Shown: positions 7,943-52,043 of the stretch, in pieces
Numbering within the stretch: position 1 is the first letter of the stretch
Layout: each line of letters opens with the position of its first letter
DNA from: Labilithrix sp.
GTDB lineage: Bacteria > Myxococcota_A > Polyangia > Polyangiales > Polyangiaceae
Length of the DNA stretch: 64,000 bases
NCBI GenBank assembly: GCA_019637195.1
Contig: JAHBWA010000012.1
Span: 1-64,000 of the forward strand
Direction of reading: 5' to 3'
Position numbers and translations under genes: made by a program
The notes under the pieces: generated by a model
What the model saw: the letters and a program-made list of their open reading frames with translations, nothing else
Database searches by the model: none
What the model was told of the DNA's origin: nothing

Positions 7943-8018
7943 CGCTCGGCTCGTCCCCACCCGGCGAAGCGTATCGCGGATACCGCGTACGACAACGCCC
8001 AGAGGACGATCGGCGCGA

Positions 8019-8780
8019 TCACTCGGGGCGGAGGTAGGAGCCCTTGATCAACTTCAAGATGCTCTGGACCGTGTCGAGGTCGGTGGCGAGGCTCTTGTTG
8101 AGCACGGTCTCGAGGTGCCCGTAGTTGTGCGCGAGCTGGAGGATGTCGAGCTCCTCCGCCTTGAGGTCGCGGAGCGGCGGGATGACCGGCTGCGACAGCA
8201 CGAGGCGCGTGTTGAGGTCCGGCAGCTCGCTCCGGATCTCGTTGAACTCGTCGAGCTGGCGGAGCCCCTCCATGAGGACCTCCTGCACGCTCAGGTTGAT
8301 CTCGCTCGCGAACTCGCGCTCGTCCGGCGGATCGAGATCGAAGAGGCCCTTTTGCCAGGTGAGCATCCGGAAGATGCTCTTCATCGGGGGCACGTCGTCG
8401 AGATCGTTGATCGACGCGTAGTAGATGACGCCCTTCCGCATGAAGATCTTGCCGATGTCGTCGCTCTCCGTGCGGATGACGAGGACGCCGTTCTTCTTCG
8501 AGGTCGCGAAGAGCTGGAGGAGGTCCGGGAGCGGGACCTCTTCGATGCTGCCGCTCATCGTGCGCGCCTGGGTCGTGCGCCGCGCGGCGGCGACGTTCTC
8601 GAGGTCACGCTTCGCGTCGGTCGAGTCGCGCGCGCCTTCGCCCGCGATGACCTTGAGGATCGACGTGCCGATGAGGACGCGGTCGCCCTCCTTGAGGCGC
8701 GCGCGCTTGATCTTCTCGCCGTTGACGAAGGTGCCGTTGGTCGAGCCCAGATCTTCGATCCAGATCTGGTCCTGCTGCAT
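8019..8780 (-). CDS. FHA-PATAN (DUF4388) signalling protein, intact 3' part
   Basis: This 253-residue frame starts in the middle of a forkhead-associated domain: IWIEDLGSTNGTFVNGEKI is the second half of an FHA fold, which binds phosphothreonine peptides. A PATAN/DUF4388 domain follows (SGSIEEVPLPDLLQLF, then GKIFMRKGVIYYA), a fold common in deltaproteobacterial signalling proteins. A helical C-terminal tail closes it. The first half of the FHA domain, including the expected GKYQGGEFPIV, GRPSDLDMV and SRKHARIT strands, lies immediately upstream but in other frames (see 8781-9002). The ATG used here is therefore an internal methionine of a once longer gene, or of a gene with sequence errors. 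Confidence 0.75.
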   Translation of the reverse strand: MQQDQIWIEDLGSTNGTFVNGEKIKRARLKEGDRVLIGTSILKVIAGEGARDSTDAKRDLENVAAARRTTQARTMSGSIEEVPLPDLLQLFATSKKNGVLVIRTESDDIGKIFMRKGVIYYASINDLDDVPPMKSIFRMLTWQKGLFDLDPPDEREFASEINLSVQEVLMEGLRQLDEFNEIRSELPDLNTRLVLSQPVIPPLRDLKAEELDILQLAHNYGHLETVLNKSLATDLDTVQSILKLIKGSYLRPE

Positions 8781-9002
8781 CGGTGATGCGCGCGTGCTTG
8801 CGGCTCACCATGTCCTCGACGGACCATGTCGAGATCGCTCGGGCGGCCGACGATGATCGGCTTGTCATTTGACGATCGGGAACTCGCCGCCCTGGGTACT
8901 TGCCGCTGATGGCGCAAGACGTGAGAGCGCCCACCCGCGGCGGAACGGCCACCCGGCGGGATCGGACGGCACTGCGGATGCCTTGGCGGCGGGATCTTGC
9001 AT
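8781..9002 (-). pseudogene. Frame-broken 5' end of the FHA-PATAN gene
   Basis: Read on the minus strand, this stretch encodes the missing FHA N-terminus in pieces. MQDPAAKAS is in one frame from an ATG at 9002. GALTSCAISGKY is in a second frame, QGGEFPIV back in the first, NDKPIIVGRPSDLDMV in the third, VEDMVSRKHARIT in the second, and then the intact frame begins at 8780. The junctions fall near 8895, 8869, 8821 and 8781. Each is explained by one extra base (or two missing), for example an AAA where AA is expected and a G between ACC and ATG. A further break lies upstream, near 8960. Whether this is a decayed gene or a local assembly error cannot be told from the sequence alone. Confidence 0.7.
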
Positions 9003-9398
9003 CGTCGGAGAGAAGCCTCTGGAGCGGCTTACCACGGGGGTGCGGGAGAGGGCGATGTCCTCCGTGCGTAGGACCTCGCATGCGCCCGCGACAAGCGTGG
9101 GGTTTTTCGCACACTTTTGTCGATCGAGAGAGTATCGAGCCGACCCAAACGTGGTCAAGTCACGGTATGGGAAAGCGCACCTTGGCCCCCGAGCGCGGGC
9201 TGCCGGGAGGGGCCGGCGCGGCGCCTTGCGCTCGAGCGGCGGGACCCGCTGCCTCATCCGGCGAGGCGGCGCGGCGGCGATTTAACGAGGATCTTCGCGG
9301 GGCCGCCGCGCTCGCGGAGCTCGCGTGGTCGCCGAGCTGGCCGGTCGAGGCCGGCCCGCGGCGGGTCGGATCGGGCCCGCGCGGGTGCTGGGCGCGTG
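9003..9398. other. Intergenic region upstream of the FHA gene
   Basis: About 400 bases with no supported gene. It should hold the promoter of the minus-strand FHA gene; a locally AT-richer patch (around 9108-9165) is the likeliest place, but I cannot name clear -35/-10 or -24/-12 boxes. Open frames here lack any recognisable protein. Confidence 0.4.
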
Positions 9399-13221: not shown

Positions 13222-14153
13222 ACCGCCGATCCGATCGTCTCCCGACGCCGCGCGTGTCGCGCGTCGCGCTCCTCGCGCTCGCCTTCGCCTTCGGTTGCGA
13301 AGAGGTCGACACGAAGGGGTGGCTGGTCGACCGAACGCGCGTCCTCGGGGTGCGCGTCGAGGCGGCGGCCGAGCCGTCGCGCGCGTCGATCGTGCCGGGT
13401 GAGCCGATGCGCGCCACGTGGCTCGTCGCGGCGCCCGGCGGCACCGGGCGGCTCGGCTGGGCGTACGCGATCTGCGCGCCGCCGCTGGGCAACTACCCCG
13501 AGCCGCGCTGCCCCGACGTGGTGCTCGCCTCCGCGCGAGGCTCGTCGGACGGCGAGCTCGTGACGATGGAGCTCGACGCTCCGCCGGCGGCGGCGGTCGC
13601 GGCGGACGTGGAGCTCTCGATCCTCGCGGCGTTCTGCGAAGGCGGTGAGGCGTCGCTCGACGCCGCGCGCTTCGAGGCGACCTGCGCGGGGGGCGCCACG
13701 GCGCGGCTCGCCGCGGGCAAGATCCGGCTGGTGGCGGCGGGCGCGAACCAGAACCCCGAGGTCGCGCCCGACGCGATCCTCTTCGACGGCGCGCCGCTCG
13801 CGCCGTCCACGCTCCGCGCGGGCCCTTGCGAGGGCGATCCCGCCGCGCCGGTCGCCGGGCCGGGCACGAAGCACGCCTTCGCCCTCCGGTTCGGCGGCGA
13901 CGAGCGCGAGAGCGCGGCGGACGGGCTCGAGGACGTGCTCGCGTCGCACGTCGTGACGGCCGGCACGCTGAAGCGGCAGTACTCGATGTTCGAGCCCGCC
14001 GATCCCGCTCCGAAGGAGGTCTCCGTCGAGTGGACGGCGCCTCCGAGCGAAGAGCTCGGCGCCGGGGGCCGCCTCGTCGAGGCCTACTTCGTCCTCCGCG
14101 ATGGTCGCGGCGGCGCTGGGTTCGGACGGCGCACGGTCTGCGTGCGCCCGTGA
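13218..14153 (+). CDS. Hypothetical lipoprotein of the TonB operon
   Basis: A 311-residue protein starting with GTG that overlaps the receptor stop. Its signal peptide ends FAFGC, a plausible lipobox, so it is probably a periplasmic or outer-membrane lipoprotein. The mature part is beta-rich with several Cys (for example ICAPPLG, EPRCPD, AFCEGGE, EATCAGG) that may pair. No family is recognised. Its position between receptor and ExbB, with translational coupling, suggests it helps the receptor, for example as a surface ligand-binding partner; that is inference from context only. Confidence 0.7.
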   Translation: MNRRSDRLPTPRVSRVALLALAFAFGCEEVDTKGWLVDRTRVLGVRVEAAAEPSRASIVPGEPMRATWLVAAPGGTGRLGWAYAICAPPLGNYPEPRCPDVVLASARGSSDGELVTMELDAPPAAAVAADVELSILAAFCEGGEASLDAARFEATCAGGATARLAAGKIRLVAAGANQNPEVAPDAILFDGAPLAPSTLRAGPCEGDPAAPVAGPGTKHAFALRFGGDERESAADGLEDVLASHVVTAGTLKRQYSMFEPADPAPKEVSVEWTAPPSEELGAGGRLVEAYFVLRDGRGGAGFGRRTVCVRP

Positions 14154-14168
14154 AAAGGAGACCGTGAC

Positions 14169-14822
14169 ATGACGATCGAGGACAAGCTTCGCGCGCTCGC
14201 GGGCGCGGGCGCGGGCTGGGTGATGTGGCTGCTCGTGGGGCTCAGCGTGCTCGTGGTCGCGATCGCGATCGAGCGCGCGGTCGTGCTCTTCCTCGCGCGC
14301 GACGACGTGCAGGCGCTCCGGCGAAACCTCACGAGCGCGCTCGGTCGCGGCGATCTCGTCGCCGCCCGAGGCCTGGTCGTCGCGTCGCGCTCGATCGAGG
14401 CGCAGGTCCTCGCCGCGGGCCTCGGCGCGCTCCCGCGCGGCGCGGCGGCGGTCGAGGAGCGGTTGGCGAGCGAAGCCCAGCTGACGAGGCTCACGATGGA
14501 GCGCCGCCTGGCGCTGCTCGGCACGATCGGCTCGAACGCGCCGTTCGTCGGCCTGCTCGGGACGGTGATCGGGATCATCCGCGCGTTCCACGCGCTCGAC
14601 GCGAGCGGCGGGCAGGTGTCGACGGCGCTCATGGCGGAGATCGGCGAGGCGCTCACAGCGACCGCCGTGGGGCTGTTCGTCGCGCTGCCTGCGGTGGCGT
14701 TGTTCAACTTCTTCCAGCGGCAGATCGCCGGCCGCGTCGCGCGCGCCGAGGCGCTCGGCCGCGAGATGCTCTCCTTCGTGAAGGACGAGCGGCGCCCGCT
14801 GGCGACCGAGGAGGCCGTCTGA
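14169..14822 (+). CDS. exbB: ExbB/TolQ/MotA-family proton channel
   Basis: A 217-residue inner-membrane protein. The AAGGAG at 14155-14160 fits the ATG. One membrane helix lies at residues ~17-40 (GWVMWLLVGLSVLVVAIAIE). Two more lie at ~115-140 and ~160-180 and carry the family motifs GSNAPFVGLLGTVIGII and ALTATAVGLFVALPAV. ExbB forms the pentameric channel that couples proton flow to TonB movement. Length and motif spacing are normal. The stop overlaps the exbD start (TGATG). Confidence 0.92.
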   Translation: MTIEDKLRALAGAGAGWVMWLLVGLSVLVVAIAIERAVVLFLARDDVQALRRNLTSALGRGDLVAARGLVVASRSIEAQVLAAGLGALPRGAAAVEERLASEAQLTRLTMERRLALLGTIGSNAPFVGLLGTVIGIIRAFHALDASGGQVSTALMAEIGEALTATAVGLFVALPAVALFNFFQRQIAGRVARAEALGREMLSFVKDERRPLATEEAV

Positions 14823-38629: not shown

Positions 38630-40267
38630 GTGAGCGAACACTCGATCGACGCAGCGACGCTGAAGGGACGCATCGAAGAGCTGGAGCGGGAGAACGCGCG
38701 CCTGCGTCGAGGTGTCTTCGAGCCGAGCGAGCCGACCATCGTGAAGGTGCCGCCGGAGGTGGCGCCGCTCTTCGACCGATCCGCGGCGACGATGCGGGAC
38801 GTGTTCGGTCGCGCCGAGATCGATCCGGCGCGCGCGCTCGTCGCGATCGACGGCGAGCGCTACATCCTGATCCGGGCCTCGGCGTTCTCGATCGACTTCC
38901 TCGACACGCTCGTCAACCTGTACGCCGACCGTGGTGAGCGCGAGGCGCTCGCGATCGCGCGCGGGTTCCTCTTCGACATCGCGCACACGATCGGCTTCCA
39001 CGACGCGCGGCAGATGCACGAGAAGCTCGGCTCGCGCGAGGCCGTCGAGAAGCTCACCGGCGGTCCGATCCACTTCGCATACACGGGCTGGGCGCAGGTC
39101 GCGATCGACCCGCGGAGCAACCCGGTGCCGGGAGACGACTTCCTCCTCGTCTACGAGCACCCGTATTCGTTCGAGGCCGCGAGCTTCCTGCGCGCCGGGC
39201 GGAGGTCCGAGGGGCCCGCCTGCATCATGAACAGCGGCTACTCGTCGGGGTGGTGCCAGGCGAGCTTCGACGTCGAGCTGACCGCGCTCGAGGTCAAGTG
39301 CAGGGCGCGCGGCGACGACGGTTGCTTCTTCGTGATGGCCAAGCCGGATCGCGTCGTAGCGGCCGCGCGCGAGCTCTTCGGGATCGACGCGGGCACGATG
39401 CGCGAGCACGGCTTCGACGTGCCGACCTATTTCGAGCGCAAGCGCGCGGAGGAGGAGGTCCGAGAGTCGCTTCGACGGCTCGAGGAGGCCCAGGAGGAGC
39501 TCGTCCGCAAGGAGCGGCTCGCGACCGTCGGGCTGCTCGTCTCCGGCGTCGCGCACGAGGTCAACACCCCGCTGGGCGTGGCGGTCACCGCCACCGGCGT
39601 CGCGCAGGACGAGGTGGAGGCGCTACAGCGGCGGTTCGAAGCCGGCGCGCTCACGAAGGGCGACGTGCGGAGCTTCCTCGATCGCGCGGGACAGGCGCTG
39701 TCGCTCGTCGAGACGAACCTCGGGCGGGCCGCCTACCAGATCACGAAGTTCAAGCGCGCGTCGGTCGATCACGTGTCCCAGGAGGAGCGGCGCGTCGACC
39801 TCGCGGCCTACGTGCGCGAGACGCTCGCGAGCCTCGGGCCGCTCGCGCGGAAGGCCGGGCTCGTCGTGTCGTTCGGCAGCGAAGGGGAGCTCGACTGCGT
39901 CTCCTTCCCCGGCGCGATCTCGCAGATCGTGACGAACTTCGTCACGAACACCGTGATGCACGCCGCGCCGACCCGCGCGGAGCCGAGCGCGAACGCGTCG
40001 AAGCTCCACGTCGACGTCCACCTGGCGCGCCTCCCGGACGGGCGGGTCTCGCTGCGCTACAGCGACGACGGCCGCGGGATGACGAGCGAGGTCAAGGCGC
40101 AGGCGTTCCAGCCGTTCTTCACGACCGGCCGCGCGGACGGCGGGTCCGGGCTCGGTCTGCACATCGTGCACTCGCTCGTCGCCGACGTCCTCGGCGGTCG
40201 GATCGAGCTCGACACGTCTCCCGGCGAGGGCGCGACGTTCGTGGTCACGTTCCCCGTCGCGCGGTGA
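38630..40267 (+). CDS. V4R-domain sensor histidine kinase
   Basis: A 545-residue cytoplasmic kinase without membrane helices. A short coiled coil (~5-27) is followed by an XylR-N/V4R sensor region (~65-255; ALAIARGFLFDIAHTIGFHD, ending KCRARGDDGCFFVMAKP). V4R domains bind small hydrophobic molecules in several families. A second coiled coil (~265-300) leads to HisKA, VSGVAHEVNTPLGVAV with His309, and a HATPase with NFVTNTVMHA (N box), DDGRGM (G1) and GSGLGLHIV (G2). It converges with the sigma-54 response regulator at 40302, its likely partner, and has its own sigma-54 promoter, so the pair may autoregulate. Confidence 0.88.
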   Translation: MSEHSIDAATLKGRIEELERENARLRRGVFEPSEPTIVKVPPEVAPLFDRSAATMRDVFGRAEIDPARALVAIDGERYILIRASAFSIDFLDTLVNLYADRGEREALAIARGFLFDIAHTIGFHDARQMHEKLGSREAVEKLTGGPIHFAYTGWAQVAIDPRSNPVPGDDFLLVYEHPYSFEAASFLRAGRRSEGPACIMNSGYSSGWCQASFDVELTALEVKCRARGDDGCFFVMAKPDRVVAAARELFGIDAGTMREHGFDVPTYFERKRAEEEVRESLRRLEEAQEELVRKERLATVGLLVSGVAHEVNTPLGVAVTATGVAQDEVEALQRRFEAGALTKGDVRSFLDRAGQALSLVETNLGRAAYQITKFKRASVDHVSQEERRVDLAAYVRETLASLGPLARKAGLVVSFGSEGELDCVSFPGAISQIVTNFVTNTVMHAAPTRAEPSANASKLHVDVHLARLPDGRVSLRYSDDGRGMTSEVKAQAFQPFFTTGRADGGSGLGLHIVHSLVADVLGGRIELDTSPGEGATFVVTFPVAR

Positions 40268-40301: not shown

Positions 40302-41939
40302 TCACGACTTGCGCGCGATGCCGAAGCTCCGGAGCTGATAGGTCAGCGTCGACGGCTTCATCCCCAGGAGCTCCGCGGCGCCCCCGTCTCCGGCGATCTT
40401 GCCGGCGGCCTTCTCGAGCGCGGCCACGAGGTTCTGCTTCTCGAGCTCGCGCATCTCGTCGACGGTGTAGAACCCGCGCGGAGGCATCGTCATCGCGCGC
40501 AGCGGCGCGTCCGCGCGCGCGCTCGCGCGCGGCGGAGGCTCGAGCGCCTCGGCGGCCGCGAGCTCCGGGAGCGCGGCGTCGAGCCGGAGGACGCCGTCCG
40601 GCGAGAGGATGAGCGCGCGCTCGGCGACGTTCTCGAGCTCGCGCACGTTGCCCGGCCACGTGTAGGTCTCGAGCATCCGCGCGGCGTCGCGCGAGATCGG
40701 GACGAACGGCCGCCCGTGCCGCCGGCACGTCTTCGCGACGAAGTGCTCGAAGAGCGGGACGATGTCCGCCGCGCGCTCGCGGAGCGGCAGGATCTGCAGC
40801 GGGAAGACGCTGAGCCGGTAGTAGAGGTCCGCCCGAAACGTCCCCGCCGCCACGGCCGCCTTGAGGTCGCGGTTCGTCGCCGCGACCACGCGCACGTCGA
40901 TCTTCTGCGATCGCGTGTCGCCGACGCGCTCGACCTCACGCTCCTGCAGCGCGCGGAGAAGCTTGCCCTGCAGCTCGAGCGGGATCTCGCCGATCTCGTC
41001 GAGGAAGAGGGTCCCCGCGTCGGCGAGCTGGAAGCGCCCCACGCGATCGCGGTGCGCGCCCGTGAAGGCGCCGCGCACGTGGCCGAAGAACTCGCTCTCG
41101 AACAGCTCGCGCGGGACGCTCGCGCAGTTGACCTTCACGAGCGGCCCGGCGGCCCGGGCGCTCTTCTCGTGAATCGCGCGGGCGACGAGCTCCTTGCCCA
41201 CGCCCGACTCGCCCAGGACGAGCACCGTCGCGTCGGTCCGCGCGACGGCCTCGATCTGCGCCCGAACTCGCTCGAAGCCGGCGCTCGACCCGACGAGGTC
41301 GCCGCCGCCCTCGGCCTCCTTGACCTCTTCGCGCAGGTAGTCGCGCTCACGCTCGAGGGCGGCCTTCAGGACCTTGATCTCCTCGTACGCCGCCTTCTGC
41401 TCGACGTAGAGCTGCTCGAGCTCCGCGCGCTGCGTCTCCACGGCCTGGAGCTGCTCGAACGTCCGGAGCGCTGCGATCACCGTGGTGAGCAGGCGGGTCG
41501 ACGTCAGCTCCGTCTTCGTGCGGTAGTCGCTGATGTCGAAGTGGCGGATGACGGTCGCCTCGGGCGCCTGACCCGGCTGGCCGGTGCGGAGGACGACGCG
41601 GACGTGGCCGTAGCCGAGCTCGTCGCGAATGTACCGCACGAGCGACAGCCCCGCGTCGTCCGTCTCCATCACGACGTCGAGCAAGACGAGCGCGATGTCG
41701 GGGTTGTCGGCGAGCAGCTTCTTCGCGACCTCGGCCGAGCGGGCGCTCAAGAACGAGAGGCCGCGCTCGGAGAACGAGACGCTCTGCAGCGCGAGGAGCG
41801 TGACGTCGTGGACCTCCTGCTCGTCGTCGACGATGGCGATCTTCCAAGGCCGGGTGCTCGACGGGGGCCCGTCGTGCGCGCGCGGGGGGGCGCTCGTGTC
41901 GTCGACGAATGGCGATTCGTCATCATCCGCCAGGGACAT
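40302..41939 (-). CDS. Sigma-54-dependent response regulator (receiver-AAA-HTH)
   Basis: A 545-residue NtrC-type activator. A GGAGG-rich site precedes the ATG at 41939. The receiver spans ~32-165, with acidic pair Asp38/Asp39 and phosphorylated Asp88 ([12 protein letters not shown]). A coiled coil covers ~165-208. The AAA+ domain (~213-440) has Walker A GESGVGKE at 243-250 and GAFTGA at 290-295, both intact, plus [12 protein letters not shown] Fis-like HTH ends the protein ([19 protein letters not shown]). It lies between the V4R kinase and the TPR/repeat-peptide genes, and three sigma-54 promoters of this region share a possible binding word, so it is the best candidate to control the peptide system. 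Confidence 0.9.
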
Positions 41940-42079: not shown

Positions 42080-43264
42080 TCATGCTCTCACTCGGCGAGC
42101 GCGTCGGGGCCGGCGCGCGGCGCGCTCCCCCGACGCGGCGCCGCGGGAGTGGGCGTCGAGCTCGGCGAGGAGCTCGAGCGTGGAGACCGTGTGCGGGTGC
42201 GTCCTGCCGAACGTGCCCTCGAAGACGCGTCTCGCGTGGACGCAGTGAGGGCGCGCCTCTCCGGTGCGTCCGAGCGTCGTGAGCAGCGCCGCGAGGTTGT
42301 AGCGCGCGAGCGCGGTGTCCGGGTGATCCCGCCCGATGGATCGGGCGAAGAGCTCCGTCGCGCGTCGATAGCGCGCCTCGGCCGACCGCAGGCGTCCGGA
42401 GGACGCGTCGAGCGCCGCGAGGTTGTGCGTGTTCATCGCGACCTCGTAGTGGTGGTCGCCGTACACGCGGAGGAAGACCCGATGGGCTCGCGTGTAGAGT
42501 GCACGTGCTTCGCGTCGTCGACCGAGCTCGGCGAGGATCGCGGCGTACGCCGCCGCGTCGGCCGCGACGAGCGGGCTCGAGCGTCCGAGCGCCGCCTCGC
42601 GGATCGCGAGCGACCGCGCCGCGTGGGCGGCTGCGCTCCGGAAGCGCCCGCGGTGATGCTCGATGCCGCCCAGGTTGTGGTGAATCGACGCGAGCTCGGG
42701 GTGCGACGGTCCGAGCTTGCGCCGGAGGATCGCGAGCGAGCGACGGTAGGCCGACAGCCCGTCCTCGTACCGGCTCGTGTACTTGCAGAGGATGCCGACG
42801 TGGTTGAGCGCGAGCGCGAGCTCGACGCTGTCTCCGCCGAAGCGCCTCTCCGCGTCGCGGACGGCGTGGAGGAGCAGCGGGCGGGCGCGGCGGAAGTCGC
42901 CGGCCTCGCGGAGCGCGGCGCCGAGCTGCTGGCGCGCGAACAGGCGCAGCATCGACAGCTCGGGCGCTCTCCCGCGGAGCGGCCCGAGGATCTCCCAGGC
43001 GCGTCGGGCCGCCTCGACCGCTGCCGGACGCTCCCCGCGATCGACGAGGATGCGTGACAACGTGATGGAGAGGTTCGCGACGTCGGGCGAGCGCGCGCCG
43101 CCCTGGAGCTCGAAGATGGCGAGCGCTCTCCGGCAAGCGCGCTCCGCGCGCCGGTGGTCGCCGGCGTTCGAGGCCTCGTCGGCGGCGTCGTGGAGGCGGT
43201 TCGCCTTCGCGACCTGTCGTCTCTCGACGGCGCTCTCGTACGCCGCCGACGGGGCCGTGGTCAT
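42080..43264 (-). CDS. Kinesin-light-chain-type TPR protein
   Basis: A 394-residue soluble protein made almost wholly of TPR_12-like repeats of ~42 residues, for example [40 protein letters not shown] and [20 protein letters not shown]. The N-terminal ~20 residues and the Arg-rich C-terminal ~25 residues are non-repeat. Such superhelices bind peptides or proteins. It starts 13 bases after the stop of the repeat-peptide gene and shares its sigma-54 promoter, so it is the one protein certain to be made with that peptide. A chaperone or escort role for the peptide is an inference; immunity is another option. Confidence 0.82.
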
Positions 43265-43277
43265 CGTTCGCCGCCTG

Positions 43278-43613
43278 CTACGGGCGCGCGACGGCCTGGT
43301 TGTGGTTCAGCCGCATGCCGCCGGCCTTGACGCCGGAGCGAATGGGGAGGCCCTTGGCCTGGTTGTGATTCAGCACGGGCCCACCGGCCTTGGTGCCGGA
43401 GCGGACGCGGACGCCCTTCGCCTGATTGTGCTGGAGGACCGGTCCGCCGGCCTTGACGCCGGAGCGGACGGGGAGGCGCTTGGTCTGGTTGTGCTGGAGC
43501 ACCGGCCCGCCGGCCTTCGTGCCGCTGCGCACGACGACGCCTGCCCGCTTCGCCGTCGCGGCGTCGGTGTCCTGGCCCTGCGCGGTCGTCTTCTTCGTGT
43601 CGTCCTTGGTCAT
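43278..43613 (-). CDS. Repeat peptide precursor candidate (four KAGG/HNQ units)
   Basis: A 111-residue, Lys/Gly/Asn-rich basic protein without Cys, signal peptide or membrane helix. Residues 1-28 are a polar leader (MTKDDTKKTTAQ...). Residues 29-111 are four units of 21 residues with the pattern RSG(T/V)KAGG, then PVL(Q/N)HNQ(A/T)K; the last is MRLNHNQAVARP. Gly-Gly pairs stand at 35-36, 56-57, 77-78 and 98-99, exactly 21 apart. Cutting after each would give a 36-residue leader, three 21-residue peptides and a 12-residue tail. The divergent operon encodes a C39 double-glycine peptidase transporter. The -4 residue is Lys rather than hydrophobic, unlike standard double-Gly leaders. No modification enzyme is nearby. 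Function unknown. Confidence 0.75.
   Translation of the reverse strand: MTKDDTKKTTAQGQDTDAATAKRAGVVVRSGTKAGGPVLQHNQTKRLPVRSGVKAGGPVLQHNQAKGVRVRSGTKAGGPVLNHNQAKGLPIRSGVKAGGMRLNHNQAVARP
43281..43529. repeat. 63-base coding repeats of the peptide gene
   Basis: Four units on the minus strand beginning at 43529, 43466, 43403 and 43340, each 63 bases (the last 60), encode the 21-residue units. The bases differ at many synonymous sites while KAGG, HNQ and RSG are kept, so selection acts on the protein and the array is not a fresh duplication. Confidence 0.85.
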
Positions 43614-43676
43614 GTCGTCCCCTGAAGTGCCGAATGGGTTGGAAGGAGCGCCGAATGGCTCTCCGACGGAGCGACG

Positions 43677-43692
43677 AGCAGGCGACGTGCCA
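43677..43692 (-). promoter_or_regulatory. Sigma-54 promoter of the repeat-peptide gene
   Basis: On the minus strand TGGCACGTCGCCTGCT matches TGGCACG-N4-TTGCW at all but one position, with exact GG-N10-GC spacing. Transcription would start near 43666, giving a ~53-base leader before the ATG at 43613. It is the best -24/-12 match I saw in the window. Confidence 0.72.
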
Positions 43693-43707
43693 CGGACGTC
43701 GTCCGTG
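43691..43707. promoter_or_regulatory. Palindrome abutting the -24 element
   Basis: CACGGAC-GTC-GTCCGTG, seven-base perfect arms, touches the upstream edge of the minus-strand sigma-54 promoter. On the plus strand it is followed by TTTTT, so it also has the shape of an intrinsic terminator, but no plus-strand gene precedes it. A regulator or IHF-like site, or a stop for stray plus-strand transcripts, are both possible. Confidence 0.5.
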
Positions 43708-43778
43708 TTTTTCCGCGTGAACTGCGATCCGAGCGGGCGGAGCGCTCGCGAGAAACGAAAAGTTGAGAGTCATCCTCG

Positions 43779-43790
43779 CGAATTCTCGAG
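43779..43790 (-). promoter_or_regulatory. Shared activator-like 12-mer between divergent promoters
   Basis: CTCGAGAATTCG on the minus strand, identical to 38478-38489. It is part of a wider near-palindrome, CTCGCGAATTCTCGAG (43775-43790). It lies 75 bases upstream of the export-operon -24 GG and 88 bases upstream of the peptide-gene -24 GG, a normal distance for an enhancer-binding protein serving both sides. Confidence 0.55.
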
Positions 43791-43863
43791 CTTGCTCGGC
43801 GGGCGCGTGCGCGCGCCGGTGGGAGATCCCGCGGATCCCTGGCGCGCCGCGCGGCCGCTGGCG

Positions 43864-43879
43864 TGGCCTGCCCGTTGCT
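43864..43879 (+). promoter_or_regulatory. Sigma-54 promoter of the export operon
   Basis: TGGCCTGCCCGTTGCT fits TGGCACG-N4-TTGCW with two mismatches in the -24 box and a perfect TTGCT, with exact GG-N10-GC spacing. The start of transcription near 43890 rules out the upstream frame starts at 43763 and 43892 and supports the ATG at 43916. Confidence 0.62.
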
Positions 43880-43915
43880 GTACGCGCGACGGTGTCCGCA
43901 CCGTTCGCTCGATCC

Positions 43916-45091
43916 ATGCGCGCGCTCTCGGCCGATCGAGCGCGCTCGCCTCGTCTCGCGATCGCGTTCGCGCTCGTCCTCTTCGGCGGCTGGCTCGCCT
44001 GGTTCGTCGGCGCGAGGGTGAGCGTCTACGAGGTGAGCGACGCCTCACGGCTCGAGACCGAGCGGAGGGCGCACTCGGTCGACGCGCCCGCGTCGGGGCG
44101 GCTCAGGACCTTCGACCTCGCGCTGAACCAGTCGATCGCCGAGGGCGACGTCCTCGCCGTGCTCGACTCCGAGGCGGAGGAGCGGCGCCTGAACGAGGAG
44201 CGCACGCGCCTCGCCACGCTGTCGCCGGAGATCGACGCGCTCGCGCGTGTCCTCTCGGCCCACGAGAAGGCGCTCGCGGCCGACCGCGCCGCCACCGGCG
44301 TCGCCGTCGAGGGTTGGAGAGCGAAGCACGACGAGGCGGAGACCAGCGCGCGCCTCGCGAGCGAGGAGGCGCAGCGGGCGAAGTTGCTCCAGGAGCGCGG
44401 CGCGATCTCGGAGGCGGAGGCGAAGCGGTCGTCCGCGCGCGCCGACGAGACGCGCGCGGCGGCGCGGGCGCGAGCGCTCGAGGTCGATCTCGAGGGGCGC
44501 GCGCTGCGGACCCGCGAGAGCCAGGGCGTCGCGCGGATCGAGGATCTCCGCCGCGAGCTCGCGACGCTCGAGGGCCGGCGCGCCACGTCGCGGGCGATCA
44601 TCGCCGAGCTCGAGCACGAGATCGAGCGCCGGACGATCCGCGCGCCCGCCTCTGGACGTGTCGAAGACGTCGCCGCGCGCACCGCGGGGGCCTGGGTGAA
44701 GGAGGGGGAGAAGCTCGGCGTGATCGTGCCGGACGGTCCTCTACGCGTCGTCGCGGAGTTTCCTCCGCGCACCTCGATCGGGCGCGTCCGCGCGGGCCAG
44801 CCGGCGCGCGTCCGGCTCGACGGCTTCCCCTGGACGCAATATGGCGCGCTCGGCGCGCGCGTCGTGTCGGTCGCGAGCGAGCCGCGGCAGGGCCACGTAC
44901 GGATCGAGCTCGACGTGACGACCGCGCCGTCGGACCGGATCCCGCTCCAGCACGGGATGACCGGCTCGACCGAGATCGAGGTCGACGCCGTGTCGCCTGC
45001 CACCCTCGTCCTTCGGAGGACGGGGCAGCTCCTCGAGCGTCCGCGAACGGCGGAGGCGCAGCCCACCCGGACCAGCGGCGGTGCGTCGTGA
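43916..45091 (+). CDS. HlyD-family membrane fusion protein
   Basis: A 391-residue periplasmic adaptor. One inner-membrane helix lies at ~17-37 (IAFALVLFGGWLAWFVG). The first half of a lipoyl-like domain follows at ~55-90 (VDAPASGRLRTFDLALNQSI). A long alpha-helical hairpin, very rich in Glu/Ala/Arg, spans ~95-235. Then come the second lipoyl half (TIRAPASGRVEDVAA) and beta-barrel segments to ~365. It should link the inner-membrane transporters to an outer-membrane exit duct; no TolC-like gene is in the window. The sigma-54 promoter at 43864 supports this ATG. The stop overlaps the next GTG start. Confidence 0.85.
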   Translation: MRALSADRARSPRLAIAFALVLFGGWLAWFVGARVSVYEVSDASRLETERRAHSVDAPASGRLRTFDLALNQSIAEGDVLAVLDSEAEERRLNEERTRLATLSPEIDALARVLSAHEKALAADRAATGVAVEGWRAKHDEAETSARLASEEAQRAKLLQERGAISEAEAKRSSARADETRAAARARALEVDLEGRALRTRESQGVARIEDLRRELATLEGRRATSRAIIAELEHEIERRTIRAPASGRVEDVAARTAGAWVKEGEKLGVIVPDGPLRVVAEFPPRTSIGRVRAGQPARVRLDGFPWTQYGALGARVVSVASEPRQGHVRIELDVTTAPSDRIPLQHGMTGSTEIEVDAVSPATLVLRRTGQLLERPRTAEAQPTRTSGGAS

Positions 45092-47772
45092 TCGCGCGAG
45101 GGGGCCGGCGGCGCTGGCTCGTGCCCGAGGTCGTGCAGACGTCGGCGATGGACTGCGGGCCCGCGTCGCTCAAGGCGTTGCTCGAGGGGCACGGGATCTC
45201 CGTCAGCTACGGCCGCCTGCGCGAGGCCTGTCAGACCGACATCGACGGGACCTCGATCGACACGCTCGAGGACGTCGCCGGTCGGCTCGGGCTCGAGGTC
45301 GAGCAGTCCCTGCTGCCGGTCGACCACCTGTTCCTCCGCGGCTCCGGGGCTCTCCCGGCGCTGCTCGTCGTGCGCCTCCCGAGCGGCCTCACGCACTTCT
45401 CGGTCGCGTGGCAGAGGCACGGGCACCTCGTGCAGGTCATGGACCCCGCGAGCGGCCGGCGATGGATGCACGTGAGGCGCTTCATCGAAGCGGTCCACCT
45501 CCACACCGCGGAGCTCGAGCCCGATGTCGTCGCGGAGTGGCTCGCGTCGGACGAGCTCCGCGGCGCGCTCCGCGAGCGGATGGCGCGGCTCGGCGCGGCG
45601 GGCGGCTCGGGGCTCGGAGAGATCGCGCGCGCGGGCGACTGGCGCGCGATCGCCGTGCTCGACGCGTCGGTGCGCATGGTCCAGTCGATCGTCGACGGCG
45701 GCGGCCTCCGCCGAGGAGCGGAGGCGGTCGCCGCGTTGCGGGCGATCCACGAGGAGGCGTGCGCGAGCCCGGCGGCGATCCCCGAGCGCTTCTGGACGGT
45801 GCTCCCGAGCGGGCTGCGCGGGGGCGCGGAGGCCATCGCGATCCGCGGCGCGGTGATGCTCACCGTTCGCCGCGTTCGCGAGGGCGCGGCCGACGGCGAG
45901 CTCTCTCCCGAGCTCGCGCTCGCGCTCGCCGAGCCGAAGCCTCGGCCGGGGCGCGAGCTCCTCCGGATGCTCCGCGAGGACGGCGCGATCGGGCCGGCGG
46001 TCCTCGGGCTCGGCCTCGTCGCGGCGGCGAGCATCGCGATCGTGCAGGCCCTCTTGCTGCGCGCGCTCCTCGAGGTCGGGCGCGATCTCGGACCGCTCGA
46101 GCAGCGGCTCGCGGCCGTCGCGGCGCTGCTCGTCCTGATGCTCGTCGCGCTCGGCCTGGAGCTGCCCATCGCCTCGGGGGTCCTCGGGCTCGGACGCAGG
46201 CTCGAGGCGCGGTTCCGGCTCGCCTTCCTCGCGAAGCTGCCGCGCCTCGAGGACCGCTACTTCGCGAGCCGCCCGACCGCCGACATGGCCGAGCGGAGCC
46301 ACGTCGTCCACGCGCTCCGTGACCTGCCCGTGATGGCGGCGCAGGTGGTTCGCTGCGCGCTCGAGCTCGCGGTCACGGCGTGCGCGGTCGCGCTGCTCGA
46401 TCCGCGGAGCGCCGGGTTCGCGCTCGCGCTCGCGGCGGCCGCGGTGGCGATCCCGCTCGCCGCGCAACCCGTCCTCGTGGAGCGCGAGCTGCGCGCGCGC
46501 ACGCACGTCGGAGCGATCTCGCGGTTTTACCTGGATGCGATGCTCGCCTCGGTCCCGATCCGCGCCCACGGCGCCGAGCGCTCGGTCCGCCGGGAGCACG
46601 AGTCGCTCGTGCTCGAGTGGACGCGGGCGGCGCGTGGCCTCGTCTCGGCCGTCGTCGGCGTCGAGGGCGCTCGAGCGGCGGTGATGCTCGGCTTGACGAT
46701 CGCGCTCGTCTTCTCGTACCTGGCCCGCGCGTTCGAGCCCGCCAGCGCGCTCTTGCTCGTCTACTGGACGCTGAGCCTGCCGGTCCTCGGGGAAGAGCTC
46801 GCGCGCCTCGTCCGGCAGTATCCCGCGCGCCGCAACCTGACGCTCCGCTTGCTCGAGCCGCTCGGCGCGCGCGAGGCGCCGTCCTCGTCGGGGGGCGACG
46901 CTCCGGACGATCGCGCCGTCCGCGCTCGAGGCGTCGCGATCTCGTTCGAGGACGTCGGTCTCGTGGCCTCCGGCCACACGATCCTCGAGGGGATCTCCGT
47001 CGCTCTCCGCCCGGGCGAGCACGTCGCGGTCGTGGGCGCTTCGGGGGCTGGCAAGTCCAGCCTCGCGGCGGCGCTGCTCGGCTGGCACCGGGCTTCGTCG
47101 GGACGGATCGTCGTCGACGGCGCGCCGATCGAAGACGTGCTCGACCGGCTGCGAGGGGAGACCGCGTGGATCGAGCCGAGCGTGCTCCTCTTCAACGCGT
47201 CGCTCCTCGACAACCTCCGCTACGGAGCCGACGAGACGGCCTCGCGCGCGGACGTGCTCGACGCGGCCGACCTCCACGGCGTCGTCGCGAGCCTCCCCGA
47301 GGGGCTCCAGACGGCGCTCGGTGAAGGAGGCGCGCTCGTGAGCGGCGGGGAAGGGCAGCGTGTGCGCCTCGGGCGCGCCTTCGGACGAAAGGACGCGCGG
47401 CTCGTGATCATGGACGAGCCGTTTCGCGGGCTCGACCGTGGGACGCGGCGGCGCCTCCTCGCGGCGGCTCGGTCGTGGTTCGAGGGCGCGACCTTGATCG
47501 CGATCACGCACGACGTCGGCGACACGCGGGACTTCGAGCGCGTTCTCGTGCTCGACGGCGGTCGTCTCGTCGAGGACGACGTCCCGGGGGAGCTCGCCGC
47601 GCGACGAGGCTCGCTGTACGAGGCGCTGCTCGACGCCGAGCGATCGGTGCACGAGGAGCTCTGGTCGGGCGACGTCTTCCGCGCGCTCCGCCTCGATCGG
47701 GGCCGGCTCCAAACGCGCGGGCGGACGCCGGAGCAGGGCGACGGCGCGGATCTTCGCGAGGTGGCGCAGTGA
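45088..47772 (+). CDS. Peptidase-containing ABC exporter (C39, bacteriocin type)
   Basis: An 894-residue exporter from a GTG overlapping the adaptor stop. Residues ~10-130 are a C39 peptidase with oxyanion Gln17, catalytic Cys23 (SAMDCGPASLKALLEGHG), His103 (LTHFSVAW) and Asp119 (VMDPASG), all present. C39 domains cut after Gly-Gly in leaders of exported peptides. A long linker (~140-290) separates it from the membrane domain (~295-600). The ATPase has Walker A GASGAGKSS, signature VSGGEGQ and Walker B LVIMDEPF. The arrangement matches NHLP/lantibiotic-type exporters, except that the linker is longer. The likely substrate is the Gly-Gly repeat protein encoded divergently. Confidence 0.9.
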   Translation: MIARGGRRRWLVPEVVQTSAMDCGPASLKALLEGHGISVSYGRLREACQTDIDGTSIDTLEDVAGRLGLEVEQSLLPVDHLFLRGSGALPALLVVRLPSGLTHFSVAWQRHGHLVQVMDPASGRRWMHVRRFIEAVHLHTAELEPDVVAEWLASDELRGALRERMARLGAAGGSGLGEIARAGDWRAIAVLDASVRMVQSIVDGGGLRRGAEAVAALRAIHEEACASPAAIPERFWTVLPSGLRGGAEAIAIRGAVMLTVRRVREGAADGELSPELALALAEPKPRPGRELLRMLREDGAIGPAVLGLGLVAAASIAIVQALLLRALLEVGRDLGPLEQRLAAVAALLVLMLVALGLELPIASGVLGLGRRLEARFRLAFLAKLPRLEDRYFASRPTADMAERSHVVHALRDLPVMAAQVVRCALELAVTACAVALLDPRSAGFALALAAAAVAIPLAAQPVLVERELRARTHVGAISRFYLDAMLASVPIRAHGAERSVRREHESLVLEWTRAARGLVSAVVGVEGARAAVMLGLTIALVFSYLARAFEPASALLLVYWTLSLPVLGEELARLVRQYPARRNLTLRLLEPLGAREAPSSSGGDAPDDRAVRARGVAISFEDVGLVASGHTILEGISVALRPGEHVAVVGASGAGKSSLAAALLGWHRASSGRIVVDGAPIEDVLDRLRGETAWIEPSVLLFNASLLDNLRYGADETASRADVLDAADLHGVVASLPEGLQTALGEGGALVSGGEGQRVRLGRAFGRKDARLVIMDEPFRGLDRGTRRRLLAAARSWFEGATLIAITHDVGDTRDFERVLVLDGGRLVEDDVPGELAARRGSLYEALLDAERSVHEELWSGDVFRALRLDRGRLQTRGRTPEQGDGADLREVAQ

Positions 47773-49904
47773 CCGCCCCCGCCGCGGCGCGAAGCGAAGG
47801 GCTCGCGTCGCTCGCCTGGCCGGCGTCGCGCGCCGCCGAGGCGGTCGCCGCGCTCGCCGCGACGGCCGGCCTGGCGGTGCGGCGAGGTGTTCTCCCCGCG
47901 CCTCCAGACGGCGCGTGCGCCTCGCCCGACGGCGTCGCGCTCTGGATCGAGCACGCGAGCGCCCACGTCGGGATCGACGCGGAGCCGGTGGGGGCGTTCT
48001 ATCCGGATCTCGAGGCGCTCGCGCGCGGCGCGCCGCCGGCGCTGCTGGCGCTGGGGCCCGATCTCCTGCTCGCGGTCGCCGCGGTCGACCGCTCGACGGC
48101 GCGCGTGATCGCGCCCGACGGAGCGGCCCATGCCGTTCCTTTCGCCGATCTCTGGGCTCGCCTGGTGTCCGGCATCCCCGACGCCGACGATGCCGGGCTC
48201 GACGAGCTCCTCACGCGCGCGAGGGTGCCGGGACGCCGCCGGGCGCGCGCCCGCGAGAGCCTCCGGCGGACGCGCCTGTCCGCCCAGTGGGTCGAGGGGT
48301 GGTGGATGTTGCGACCGCGCCCGTCGGCGGCGCTCCGCGAGCACGCTGCGCACGGGCGGCTCGGGCGGCGGCTCGTCGCGATCGTCGCCGCGCACGCGCT
48401 GCTCTCGGGTCTCGGCCTGGTCGGGTGGTGGCTCATCGGCGCGGGCGCGCTCGACGGGCGGCTGGATCGCGGCTGGCTCGTCGCGTGGGCGCTGCTCCTC
48501 GTCACGCAGGTCGCGACGCACGTGCTCGTGAGCCGCGCGGAGTCGCTCCTCGCCGTCGACGTCGGCGGGCTCCTCAAGCAGCGCCTGCTCGCCGGCGCGC
48601 TCGCGCTCTCGCCGGAGCGCGTGCGCAGGCGAGGCGCCGGCCAGCTCCTCGGGACGGTGCTCGAGTCCGAGGCGATCGAGGAGCTGGCGCTCTCGGGCGG
48701 GTTCACCAGCGTGGTGTCGCTGGTCGAGCTCGTCGCCGCCGCCGTGGTCCTCGCGTGCGGAGCCGCCGCGCGCGTGGAGCTGTCCTTGCTCGCGCTCTGG
48801 ATCGTGCTCACGGGCGCGCTGGTGCTCCGCTACTGGCGCGCTCGGCGCGACTGGACCGACGAGCGCATCGAGATGACGCACGCGCTCGTGGAGAAGATGG
48901 TCGGTCATCGCACGCGCCTGGCGCAGGAGCGGCCCTCGTCGCGCCACGCGAGCGAGGACGAGGCCGCCGCGCGGTGCCTCGCGACCTCGGAGCGCATGGA
49001 TCGGCGCGCGGCGAAGCTGGCCGCGGTCGTCCCGCAGGGGTGGCTCGTCGTCGGGATCGCCGCGCTCGGCCCGACCTTCGCCGCGGCCGGCGCGTCCGTC
49101 CCGGACGTGGCCGTCTCGGTCGGCGGCGTGATCCTCGCGTACCGCGCGCTGCGAAAGCTCGTGCTCGGCCTGACCAGCCTGTCCGGCGCGCACCTCGCGT
49201 GGCGACGGGTGCAGCCGCTCCTCGAGGACACGCCGGTAGACGTGGACGCGGATCCGAGGCTCGTCCCGGGCGTCGCGCTCGAGGCCGGGCGCGCGCCGAT
49301 CCTCGACGCCCGGGAGGTCTCGTTCGCCTACCCGCGTCGCGCCGAGCCGGTCCTCCGCGTCTGCGACCTCGCGCTCCGCTCGGGCGACCGCGTGCTGCTC
49401 GAGGGCGCCTCGGGCGGAGGGAAGTCGACGCTCTCGGCGCTGCTCGCCGGTCTCCGCGAGCCCACCGCGGGCGTCCTGCTCCTCGGCGGGCTCGACCGGC
49501 GCTCGCTCGGCCTCGCCGCGTGGCGGAGGCGCGTCGCGTTGGCGCCGCAGTTTCACGAGAACCACGTCCTCACCGGGACCCTCGCGTTCAACCTGCTGAT
49601 GGGGCGCCGCTGGCCGCCGCGGGCGGAGGACCTCGCGGAGGCCGAGTCGCTCTGCCTCGAGCTCGGGCTCGGCCCGCTGCTCGCGCGCATGCCCTCGGGC
49701 ATCGAGCAGATGGTCGGAGAGACCGGCTGGCAGCTCTCGCAGGGCGAGAAGAGCCGCCTCTACCTCGCGCGCGCGCTGCTCCAGAACGCCGACGTGCTCG
49801 TCCTCGACGAGAGCTTCGCCGCGCTCGATCCCCACACGACGCGCGCCGCCTTCGCGTGCGTCCTCCGGCGCGCGAAGACGCTGCTCGTGGTCGCGCACCC
49901 GTAG
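47769..49904 (+). CDS. Second ABC exporter, peptidase-less
   Basis: A 711-residue permease-ATPase from a GTG overlapping the previous stop. Residues ~1-160 form a domain placed like the peptidase of its partner (DGVALWIEHASAHVGID, ARVIAPDGAAHAVPFADLW). It shows no Gln-Cys-His-Asp set, so it looks like a degenerate C39-like or docking domain. Membrane helices run from ~195 to 450. The ATPase has Walker A EGASGGGKSTLSALLAG, signature LSQGEKSR and Walker B VLVLDESFAALDPH. NHLP-type export loci also pair a peptidase-bearing and a peptidase-free ABC protein; the two probably form one heterodimer. The end is short (LLVVAHP) but the fold is complete. Confidence 0.87.
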   Translation: MTAPAAARSEGLASLAWPASRAAEAVAALAATAGLAVRRGVLPAPPDGACASPDGVALWIEHASAHVGIDAEPVGAFYPDLEALARGAPPALLALGPDLLLAVAAVDRSTARVIAPDGAAHAVPFADLWARLVSGIPDADDAGLDELLTRARVPGRRRARARESLRRTRLSAQWVEGWWMLRPRPSAALREHAAHGRLGRRLVAIVAAHALLSGLGLVGWWLIGAGALDGRLDRGWLVAWALLLVTQVATHVLVSRAESLLAVDVGGLLKQRLLAGALALSPERVRRRGAGQLLGTVLESEAIEELALSGGFTSVVSLVELVAAAVVLACGAAARVELSLLALWIVLTGALVLRYWRARRDWTDERIEMTHALVEKMVGHRTRLAQERPSSRHASEDEAAARCLATSERMDRRAAKLAAVVPQGWLVVGIAALGPTFAAAGASVPDVAVSVGGVILAYRALRKLVLGLTSLSGAHLAWRRVQPLLEDTPVDVDADPRLVPGVALEAGRAPILDAREVSFAYPRRAEPVLRVCDLALRSGDRVLLEGASGGGKSTLSALLAGLREPTAGVLLLGGLDRRSLGLAAWRRRVALAPQFHENHVLTGTLAFNLLMGRRWPPRAEDLAEAESLCLELGLGPLLARMPSGIEQMVGETGWQLSQGEKSRLYLARALLQNADVLVLDESFAALDPHTTRAAFACVLRRAKTLLVVAHP

Positions 49905-49987: not shown

Positions 49988-50743
49988 TCACTCGTCGACG
50001 AGCGCGCCGAAGAGGGCGATGCCCATCGCGAGGCCGACGAAGACGAACAGGCCCATCAGCCCGAGGAACCCGCTGTAGTCGTCGAACGGCTGCGTCTCGA
50101 AGGCGTTGCGCGTCCCGGCGACGCCGCACACGAGCACGGGTGACAGGAGCGGGAAGAGGACGACGGCGAGCACCAGATCGCGCGCGCGCGTGCGCACCGT
50201 CATGACGCCGAAGAGCGTGCCGATCAGCGCGAGCGCGGCCGTGCCCATGACCGTCAGCGCGGCGAACGCGAGCGCGTGCACGGACGCGGGATCGTGCGTC
50301 GCGCGAGGATCGCGGAGGGCGTCGTCCGGCGGCGAGAAGTCGATGGCGAACAGGAACATCGACAGCGCGATCAGCGGCACCTCGACGAGGAGGATCGTCC
50401 CGAACGTCGCCAGCGCCTTGCCGAGGAAGATCGACGCCCGGGCGATCGGCGAGACGAGCAGCGCCGTCAGCGCCGACTCGTCGCGCTCGCGCTGCCAGAT
50501 GCGGCTGAACGAGAGGACGGACGCGAAGAAGACCGCGATCCAGATGGTGCCTGCGGCGGTCGCGCGGTTGTACTTCGGGTGGACGAAGTACGTCATGCTC
50601 GCCAGGACGCCGACGACGATCGCGAAGACGCCGGCGGTCGCCAGGACCTCGCGGGTCCGGAGCTCGATGCGCACGTCCTTGCGGCAGATCGCCCACGCCG
50701 CGGCGAGGACGCCGAGACGTCGCCGCGCGGTCCTCGTCGCCAT
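49988..50743 (-). CDS. ccmB: CcmB-like heme exporter permease
   Basis: A 251-residue inner-membrane protein with about six helices. The family hallmarks are a cytoplasmic KDVRIELRTREVL just before helix one, FASVLSFSRIWQRERD, and LLVSPIARASIFLGKALATF. CcmB is the membrane part of the CcmABCD complex that serves cytochrome c maturation. ccmA and ccmC are not in the window; they may lie elsewhere, since the next minus-strand gene downstream is unrelated. The ATG at 50743 was chosen because upstream codons of the open frame are Arg/Ser-rich and not protein-like. Confidence 0.85.
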   Translation of the reverse strand: MATRTARRRLGVLAAAWAICRKDVRIELRTREVLATAGVFAIVVGVLASMTYFVHPKYNRATAAGTIWIAVFFASVLSFSRIWQRERDESALTALLVSPIARASIFLGKALATFGTILLVEVPLIALSMFLFAIDFSPPDDALRDPRATHDPASVHALAFAALTVMGTAALALIGTLFGVMTVRTRARDLVLAVVLFPLLSPVLVCGVAGTRNAFETQPFDDYSGFLGLMGLFVFVGLAMGIALFGALVDE

Positions 50744-50993: not shown

Positions 50994-51935
50994 TCAGTGC
51001 CCGAGGAGCGTCGCGTCGCCGCCGGCGGCCATCGCGCGGACCTTGTCGGCCGCGATCTTGCGCTGCTCGGGCGTGAGGATCGGGAGGATCTTCTCCGCGA
51101 AGCCGCTCATCCGATCGACGCCGAAGCGCGCCATCGCCTTCGCGTCGTGCGGCGGCGCGACCTGGTCGAGGTCGAACGTGTCCGCGCGGAACGCCTCGAG
51201 CGAGCGCTTCCCTGCGTGCGGCCCGCCGCCGTGACGGGGGCCGCCACGCTTGCCCTCGGCGTGGCCCGGACCGCGCTCACCGCGCGCGTGGTGCCTCCAG
51301 CCCCCGGCGTTCGCGCCGTCCTTGTGGGCCTCGCGCCCTTCCTTGTAGGCCTCGCGCATCGCGTCGCGGATCTGGCCGCGCTGCTCGTCGGTGAGCTGCA
51401 GATCGTCGGCCAGCGCCTTGAGCTTCCCGAAGCCGCCCTTCATGTGCTCGCCGCGCTCGCCGCGCTTCGCCTTCATCTGCTTCTCGAGAGCGTCGACGAA
51501 GGCGCCCCGCTGTTCGGCGTCGAGCAAGCCGTGGAGCTTGGTGAGCGCGGCGCGATCGTCGGCGCGGACCTTCTCGAAGTCCGCCGTCACCTTGTCGATC
51601 TTCGGCTGGAGCGCGGCGCGGTCGAGCGTCCCGCTCTCGATCTGGGCGGCGAAGGCCGTCATCAGCTCCTTCTTCGCGTCGCCCATCGGCGCGTGACGCG
51701 CCTCGGCCTCGGCGGCGAGCTTCTCGATCTCGGCGCGTTGCTCGGGGCGGAGCGGGACCTCTCCGAGCGCGTCGCCGACGAGCCTCACGACGCCGTGGGT
51801 GTTCGTGCCGATGGGCGCTTTGGTCGCCGCGCTGGCGCTCGTCTGCGGCGACTCGACCGTGCCGCCGCAGGCGACCGCGAACACCGACACGCCGGCGACC
51901 GAAAGAGAGAACGCGATGCTTCGAACGAGCTTCAT
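50994..51935 (-). CDS. Spy/CpxP-like LTxxQ lipoprotein
   Basis: A 313-residue exported protein. GGAGG lies before the ATG at 51935; the signal peptide ends VFAVAC, so it is a lipoprotein. The mature part is highly helical and charged, with LTxxQ-type motifs LRPEQRAEI (~65), LTDEQRGQI (~185) and LTPEQRKI (~290). These mark the Spy/CpxP family of periplasmic chaperone or metal-stress sensors. A His/Gly-rich insert at ~210-245 (HHARGERGPGH, GGPRHGGGPHAG) could bind metal. The length is about twice that of Spy, consistent with a double module. No sensor kinase neighbours it. Confidence 0.78.
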   Translation of the reverse strand: MKLVRSIAFSLSVAGVSVFAVACGGTVESPQTSASAATKAPIGTNTHGVVRLVGDALGEVPLRPEQRAEIEKLAAEAEARHAPMGDAKKELMTAFAAQIESGTLDRAALQPKIDKVTADFEKVRADDRAALTKLHGLLDAEQRGAFVDALEKQMKAKRGERGEHMKGGFGKLKALADDLQLTDEQRGQIRDAMREAYKEGREAHKDGANAGGWRHHARGERGPGHAEGKRGGPRHGGGPHAGKRSLEAFRADTFDLDQVAPPHDAKAMARFGVDRMSGFAEKILPILTPEQRKIAADKVRAMAAGGDATLLGH

Positions 51936-52043
51936 CCAGATGACCTCCGCTCGAGTATGACGCGCGAAGTGCCCGATCCGCTGCATCCCGCCCGGTAAAG
52001 AACCGTAAACGGGATCAAGTGCTCGTAATCGCGAAGGTTTTGG

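Follow-up and report, generated by a model that had tools for sequence, protein, structure and literature searches.

Among described systems, those closest to the locus analyzed here combine an HlyD protein, an ABC exporter with a C39 peptidase domain and an ABC exporter without one. This NHLM trio (TIGR03794, TIGR03796 and TIGR03797), which was defined in 2010 by Haft and co-workers, who also predicted that additional precursor families would emerge from its broader distribution (PMC2887384), serves several precursor classes, and transporters of the NHLM type co-occur with several graspetide groups (PMC13097080). Known C39 substrates carry the dipeptides GG, GA or GS (PMC10885120), and LahT, a studied C39 domain, rejects charged residues at position -7 (PMC6363468). 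Multi-core RiPP precursors, such as the three-core microviridin AMdnA, plesiocin and corallotide, contain several core units per precursor, and in the FxSxx-COOH system (NF040586), a TPR protein adjoins a small peptide gene. In the system described below, the exporter is of a known kind whereas the precursor family and its putative recognition motif are new; no description of the peptide family, the motif or the TPR pairing was found in the open-access literature.

The window, i.e., the entire stretch of 64,000 nucleotides of Labilithrix sp. DNA that was analyzed (contig JAHBWA010000012.1, positions 1 to 64,000), includes a set of five genes that encode the peptide, a TPR protein, an HlyD adaptor, a C39-peptidase ABC exporter and a second ABC exporter. 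The peptide gene (43278..43613, minus strand; 111 aa) starts with an ATG that has an AGGGG box 5 bases on its 5' side, and is followed, after 13 bases, by the gene for the TPR protein (394 aa; 42080..43264, minus strand). The exporter trio is divergent from the peptide gene, in agreement with the original prediction that linked this gene to a C39 exporter, and consists of the HlyD-type membrane fusion protein (43916..45091, plus strand), the C39-peptidase ABC exporter (894 aa; 45088..47772, plus strand) and the second ABC exporter (711 aa; 47769..49904, plus strand), with a 4-base overlap at each join. The intergenic region between the peptide and HlyD genes (43614..43915) contains a terminator-like hairpin (43681-43707, plus strand) detected by a consensus scan only. 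The HlyD protein matches HlyD_3 (E 3.5e-14) and, below the cut-offs, TIGR01843 (E 1.4e-25) and TIGR03794 (E 2.3e-13); the first ABC exporter matches Peptidase_C39 (E 2.2e-17), ABC_tran (E 8.6e-19) and, also below the cut-off, TIGR03796 (E 6.5e-50), and the second one matches ABC_tran (E 2.4e-18) but not Peptidase_C39. The composition of the trio is thus that of NHLM, and the homologous loci have the three genes as well, but its scores are far below the curated cut-offs (49.8 bits against 156.2 for TIGR03794, 170.1 against 853.3 for TIGR03796, and 112.6 against 709.4 for TIGR03797). Moreover, the window peptide has no match above the cut-off in Pfam or NCBIfam to a nitrile-hydratase or Nif11 leader, and its motif is basic rather than acidic and leucine-rich. 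The Gln, Cys, His and Asp active-site residues of the C39 domain are all present, as judged by alignment with PCAT1 (4ry2/4s0f). In a tree of C39-ABC proteins constructed with a quick method, the window exporter belongs to a 10-member clade (SH-aLRT 95) together with an exporter from another Polyangiaceae genome (G049) and exporters associated with graspetides.

The peptide consists of four units of 21 aa, each of the form RSGxKAG-GPVLxHNQ or similar, in the order MTKDDTKKTTAQGQDTDAATAKRAGVVV-RSGTKAGGPVLQHNQ-TKRLPV-RSGVKAGGPVLQHNQ-AKGVRV-RSGTKAGGPVLNHNQ-AKGLPI-RSGVKAGGMRLNHNQ-AVARP. The motifs start at residues 29, 50, 71 and 92, with a period of exactly 21, and are RSGTKAG (residues 29-35; 43509..43529), RSGVKAG (residues 50-56; 43446..43466), RSGTKAG (residues 71-77; 43383..43403) and RSGVKAG (residues 92-98; 43320..43340), all on the minus strand, with the cuts predicted to fall after residues 35, 56, 77 and 98, respectively. 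The motif is followed by PVLQHNQ or PVLNHNQ in units 1-3 and by MRLNHNQ in unit 4. The Gly-Gly pairs at 35-36, 56-57, 77-78 and 98-99, with their exact 21-residue spacing, are therefore present in the open reading frame as originally proposed. The suggestion that the DNA repeats differ at synonymous sites and that the pattern is maintained by selection holds as well: among the 11 amino-acid positions that are invariant across all four units, five show synonymous codon variation, which indicates that the DNA copies diverged while the protein was kept, although such a short array gives only a modest signal. A more convincing argument that the gene is real comes from the orthologue from the same genus (Myxococcales bacterium 68-20, MKVQ01000003, hereinafter G003), which is 74% identical and contains six units that again have a period of 21 residues. 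The dN/dS value for this pair is 0.38 (110 aligned codons), compared to 0.19-0.26 for four neighbouring genes, so that the peptide is under purifying selection, if looser than its neighbours. A profile of the unit run against the 10-Mb genome retrieved the four window units (E 4e-11 to 6e-10) and nothing else; the repeat pattern is real rather than a chance occurrence. Searches of Pfam, NCBIfam and PADLOC gave no family assignment for the peptide; matches to Cecropin and L34 were below the cut-off and were dismissed, and the single match in a plasmid search was judged to be due to chance. The AlphaFold models of the peptide (best pLDDT 57, four of the five at 35-39) are too weak for a fold search and, at this low confidence, neither support nor exclude a folded repeat.

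The original prediction had also proposed a search with a profile of the unit, and such a search (23 positions) revealed further members in Myxococcota and Acidobacteriota. Within the Polyangiaceae, these are G020 and G049, the latter with four loci, and elsewhere in the phylum, G202 and G368. A scan of GTDB species genomes, for which the query alignment included one hand-made composite row solely to broaden the pattern, added three Acidobacteriota loci (L150, L152 and L154) and one from a bin labelled Pseudomonadota (L153). The family is rare, with clear members in 4 of the 108 genomes of the bacterial family and in about 4 of the 284 genomes of the phylum, and essentially a single member genome in the sample of 297 Acidobacteriota. 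Weak matches in the first search for relatives (E above about 1e-3) were dismissed, a match in the Acidobacteriota genome G505 was judged to be due to chance, and L030 and L031 were rejected by eye; the first of these (8767-9075, in G078) is an unrelated DNA repeat array.

Altogether, 14 tandem-repeat peptides with 83 units, and from 2 to 15 motif copies per peptide, were collected, which allowed the register of the motif to be defined. Counted from a cut after A-G, position -1 is Gly in all 83 units, -2 is Ala in 81 and Ser in 2, -3 is Lys/Arg in 80, -4 is Val/Ile/Leu in 79, Thr in 3 and Ala in 1, -6 is Ser/Thr in 82, -7 is Arg/Lys/Gln in all 83, -8 is Val/Ile/Met/Leu in 81, and -10 is Leu/Val/Ile/Met in 79, for a consensus of phi-R-phi-[RK]-[ST]-x-V-[KR]-A-G. 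Position +1, in contrast, is variable (Gly in 38 of the 83 units, otherwise Arg, Glu, Asp, Lys and others), and further downstream, a His is found 6 residues after A-G in 65 units, most units having Asn/Gln-His at +5/+6. Conservation thus centres on A-G and not on Gly-Gly as originally proposed; the Gly-Gly of the window is best viewed as A-G followed by a local Gly, so that the cut is predicted one residue earlier. In this register, position -4 is not Lys, as the original prediction had it, but Val/Ile/Leu/Thr; a hydrophobic residue or Thr in this position is also seen in ordinary C39 substrates. The 28-residue polar start, which had been considered a possible true leader, is not conserved, given that in relatives the first residues already belong to a unit (e.g., MKVKTTVRAG and MKIKSKIKAG), and accordingly is not a general leader. 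In common with the double-glycine leaders cut by LahT, PCAT1 or ComA, the family has a C39-ABC partner with a complete active site, a mostly hydrophobic -4 and Gly at -1. It differs by the A-G dipeptide (81 of the 83 units, with S-G in the other 2), which is outside the GG/GA/GS rule, by hydrophobic residues at -8/-10 rather than -7/-12, and by recurrence of the motif along the chain. The real oddity is the basic or polar residue at -7, where LahT rejects charge.

The gene neighbourhood is conserved in G003, where the TPR, HlyD, first ABC and second ABC proteins are, respectively, 83%, 81%, 80% and 79% identical to those of the window. In the Acidobacteriota loci L150 and L152, the genes are arranged as peptide, TPR, HlyD, C39-ABC and ABC, all co-directional, with 51-53% identity for the first ABC protein. 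The precursor directly adjoins the exporter in three Polyangiaceae genomes and heads the operon in two Acidobacteriota genomes. The five-gene set recurs in two phyla and is apparently a type of secreted-peptide system that has not been described before. An exporter of the same family is present in 9 of the 10 genomes with tandem peptides: the trio is linked to the peptide in 6 (close by in the window, G003, G020, G427 and G428, and about 3 kb away in G202) and is encoded elsewhere in 3 (G049, G429 and G430). The exception is G368, in which the peptide and the TPR protein are present but no exporter of this family was detected. Just past the TPR gene, the window encodes a sigma-54 activator (40302-41795, minus strand) and a V4R-domain histidine kinase (38630-40267, plus strand). 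A V4R-domain kinase is also found near the system in G003 (L023, 13192-14847), and in L152, a different sigma-54 activator (FHA-GAF, 6390-8297) is encoded about 1 kb upstream of the peptide genes; given the activators near the window and L152 systems, control by sigma-54 is possible. An ordinary LTXXQ-motif (Spy-like) protein (50994-51986, minus strand) is encoded near a CcmB gene (49988-50740).

The TPR protein (Pfam TPR_12, E 3.8e-45) is modelled as a confident TPR solenoid (pLDDT 92) with no further domain detected. All 6 loci that combine the exporter with tandem peptides contain the TPR gene, whereas none was found in the 51 remaining loci of the exporter family (Fisher p 3e-8, calculated as if loci were independent, even though some are closely related), so that it goes with the tandem peptides rather than with the exporter. 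Several peptide loci without an exporter are also adjoined by a TPR gene (L025, L027, L074 and L153), whereas none was found beside the orphan tandem loci L024, L026 and L154. The solved folds nearest to the model are APPBP2 bound to a degron peptide, kinesin light chain bound to cargo peptides, and LGN. These are peptide-binding TPR solenoids, and judging by the fold, the protein could be a holder of an extended chain; it is a predicted precursor-binding partner, which the original prediction had missed. The likeness to the FxSxx-COOH system extends only to the TPR similarity, with the NF040586 match at 126.1 bits against a cut-off of 300, and the window peptide ends with VARP rather than with an FxSxx C-terminus.

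The motif is not confined to tandem peptides. Four clusters from Polyangiaceae relatives (L077, L116, L117 and L118), with exporters about 50% identical to that of the window, encode microviridin-type graspetides in which PFFARFLEDQ is followed by KRVRTGVKAG and then by TLKYPSD cores (PFFARFLEDQKRVRTGVKAGG..LKYPSD). The more distant graspetides of L179 and L182 have FFARFLETQxPQVRTGxKAG. In these graspetides, the motif, R(V/I)RTGVKAG in the four clusters, occupies precisely the junction of the enzyme-binding leader with the core; the window peptide has neither the PFFARFLE leader nor the TxKYPSD core, and repeats the motif itself. Beside other exporters of the family, there are minimal precursors, namely MNSKKAKKLVVKTGLRAG-VARPIVVC (L175), MKVKTNVKAG-YIGRKGAGNSARFE (L176) and MKIKSTVRAG-AAGRASR (L191); single-copy precursors are called on the basis of the motif and position, in loci whose genes were called in this analysis. 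Beside the most distant exporters, the block becomes RTHLKGG, RTHVRGG or KTNVKGG, with the motif Ala aligned to the first Gly of KGG (RTHLKGG-V, KTNVKGG-W). Among 50 loci collected through exporter homology alone, with all loci fetched by peptide or motif searches excluded, 20 open reading frames with the motif are no more than 3 kb from the trio and 4 are farther away (a 5.1-fold enrichment per kb, p 6e-4, with loci, some of them closely related, again treated as independent), compared to 0.6 in shuffled DNA; such a frame is seen in 15 of the 50 loci, so that most exporters have no visible motif neighbour. Because the motif separates leader and core in unrelated precursors next to the same exporter family, it is best read as a recognition and cutting site, and the simplest reading of these sequences is that recognition and cutting by the exporter would both take place at this block. 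The original proposal that the whole RSGxKAGG serves for recognition can accordingly be retained for the repeated RSGxKAG block, which is common to precursors beside homologous exporters, but not for the second Gly.

We favor, with some confidence, the interpretation that the window gene encodes a precursor with multiple copies of short basic peptides, each unit having its own recognition element, which the C39 domain would cut after A-G during export. This interpretation draws on the repeat family, the conserved operon, the sharing of the motif, the intact C39 active site and the specificity of the TPR gene. The C39 domain of the neighbouring exporter would read phi-R-phi-[RK]-[ST]-x-V-[KR]-A-G while the HlyD/C39-ABC/ABC complex exports the chain, and the cytosolic TPR protein would most likely hold the extended repeat chain until export. 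Complete cutting would yield a 35-residue start fragment, three similar 21-mers (GPVLQHNQTKRLPVRSGVKAG, GPVLQHNQAKGVRVRSGTKAG and GPVLNHNQAKGLPIRSGVKAG) and a 13-residue end (GMRLNHNQAVARP). The tandem units each contain a candidate processing site, as expected of an unmodified multicopy secreted precursor. The scan of the flanking genes (36.3-52.0 kb) revealed no modifying enzyme, so that secretion of the peptide in unmodified form is probable. Such exported peptides usually function as signals or antimicrobials, and the product is probably one or the other. Against this interpretation count the A-G dipeptide outside the known rule and the basic -7, which would block LahT, as well as the undetected exporter in G368, the orphan loci lacking a TPR gene, and a low-confidence model with beta strands in every unit.

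Alternatively, the protein could leave the cell intact, or with a cut at the first motif only, and serve as a secreted repeat protein, folded or polymeric (beta-repeat, adhesive, or metal-binding via stacked Asn-His), with the inner motifs being structural repeats derived from an export signal. The frequent His at +6, the two strands per unit in one AlphaFold model and the arrays of up to 15 copies are compatible with such a protein. However, the length of the units varies within single proteins (27/25/23; 18-24; 42/33), unlike in a regular solenoid, the model with strands is of low confidence, and the same motif occurs in single-copy precursors where a structural repeat is impossible, all of which makes this explanation unlikely. 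Less probable still is a precursor cut only at the first motif, with the remainder being a multi-repeat core modified by an enzyme encoded elsewhere, as in multi-core graspetides. Such precursors do exist (AMdnA, PMC5934393; corallotide, PMC13097080), and graspetides have both the exporter family and the motif in common with the window peptide. Yet, no ATP-grasp or other maturase was seen among the flanking genes scanned in the window or around the Acidobacteriota operons, the PVLxHNQ core lacks conserved acid/hydroxyl pairs, and the window peptide repeats the processing motif in each unit, which would be superfluous for a single leader site. The pairing with a TPR protein is another difference from the described multi-core precursors.

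The least probable explanation, and a quite improbable one, is that the peptide is not secreted and that its repeats bind the TPR protein or the C39 domain, forming an intracellular scaffold or a decoy that tunes the export of other peptides. The peptide-TPR pairs distant from any exporter and the case of G368 are in line with this possibility, but the genomes G049, G430 and G429, with orphan loci, have an exporter of the same family elsewhere, and the adjacency of precursor and exporter in the Polyangiaceae and the Acidobacteriota speaks for export.

Under the multicopy precursor interpretation, the motif would amount to a concrete code for substrate recognition in a branch of C39 exporters that has been little studied. 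With this code, precursors, even those of 24 residues, can be found from sequence without a maturase marker. The motif might also represent a basic type of C39 substrate that, at -7, breaks the rule learned from LahT. Bacterial multicopy peptide precursors with a dedicated TPR holder would be a testable case. A broader generalization, which we offer tentatively, is that of a bacterial counterpart, free of modifying enzymes, of the eukaryotic multicopy precursors, in which a chain with up to 15 basic C39 motifs (phi-R-phi-R-[ST]-x-V-K-A-G) would be held by a TPR chaperone and cut at every unit on export, the motif being a processing code common to unrelated RiPP classes in Myxococcota and Acidobacteriota.

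In L152, a second, shorter paralogue (8243-8689; MKTKTNVKAGRKAGVDFNENETSGLRVQTSLKAGRRAN) is encoded next to the large tandem peptide. Two more two-unit precursors (11929-12111 and 12450-12605) are located by the exporter in L192 (Bryobacterales), with PTAVE/PIATE following the motif in place of the NHN core. The cores of a tandem peptide in G049 (L027, 9780-10139) contain Cys pairs (GGGGGCIGCSLNHNQ, GGGYGCTQCSVNHNQ), perhaps a disulfide-containing or modified variant. Finally, near a related exporter in L133, an open reading frame (13641-14735) ends with VPTELQAGVGPAVCTCPPGCCC, a Cys-rich tail that follows a possible divergent motif.
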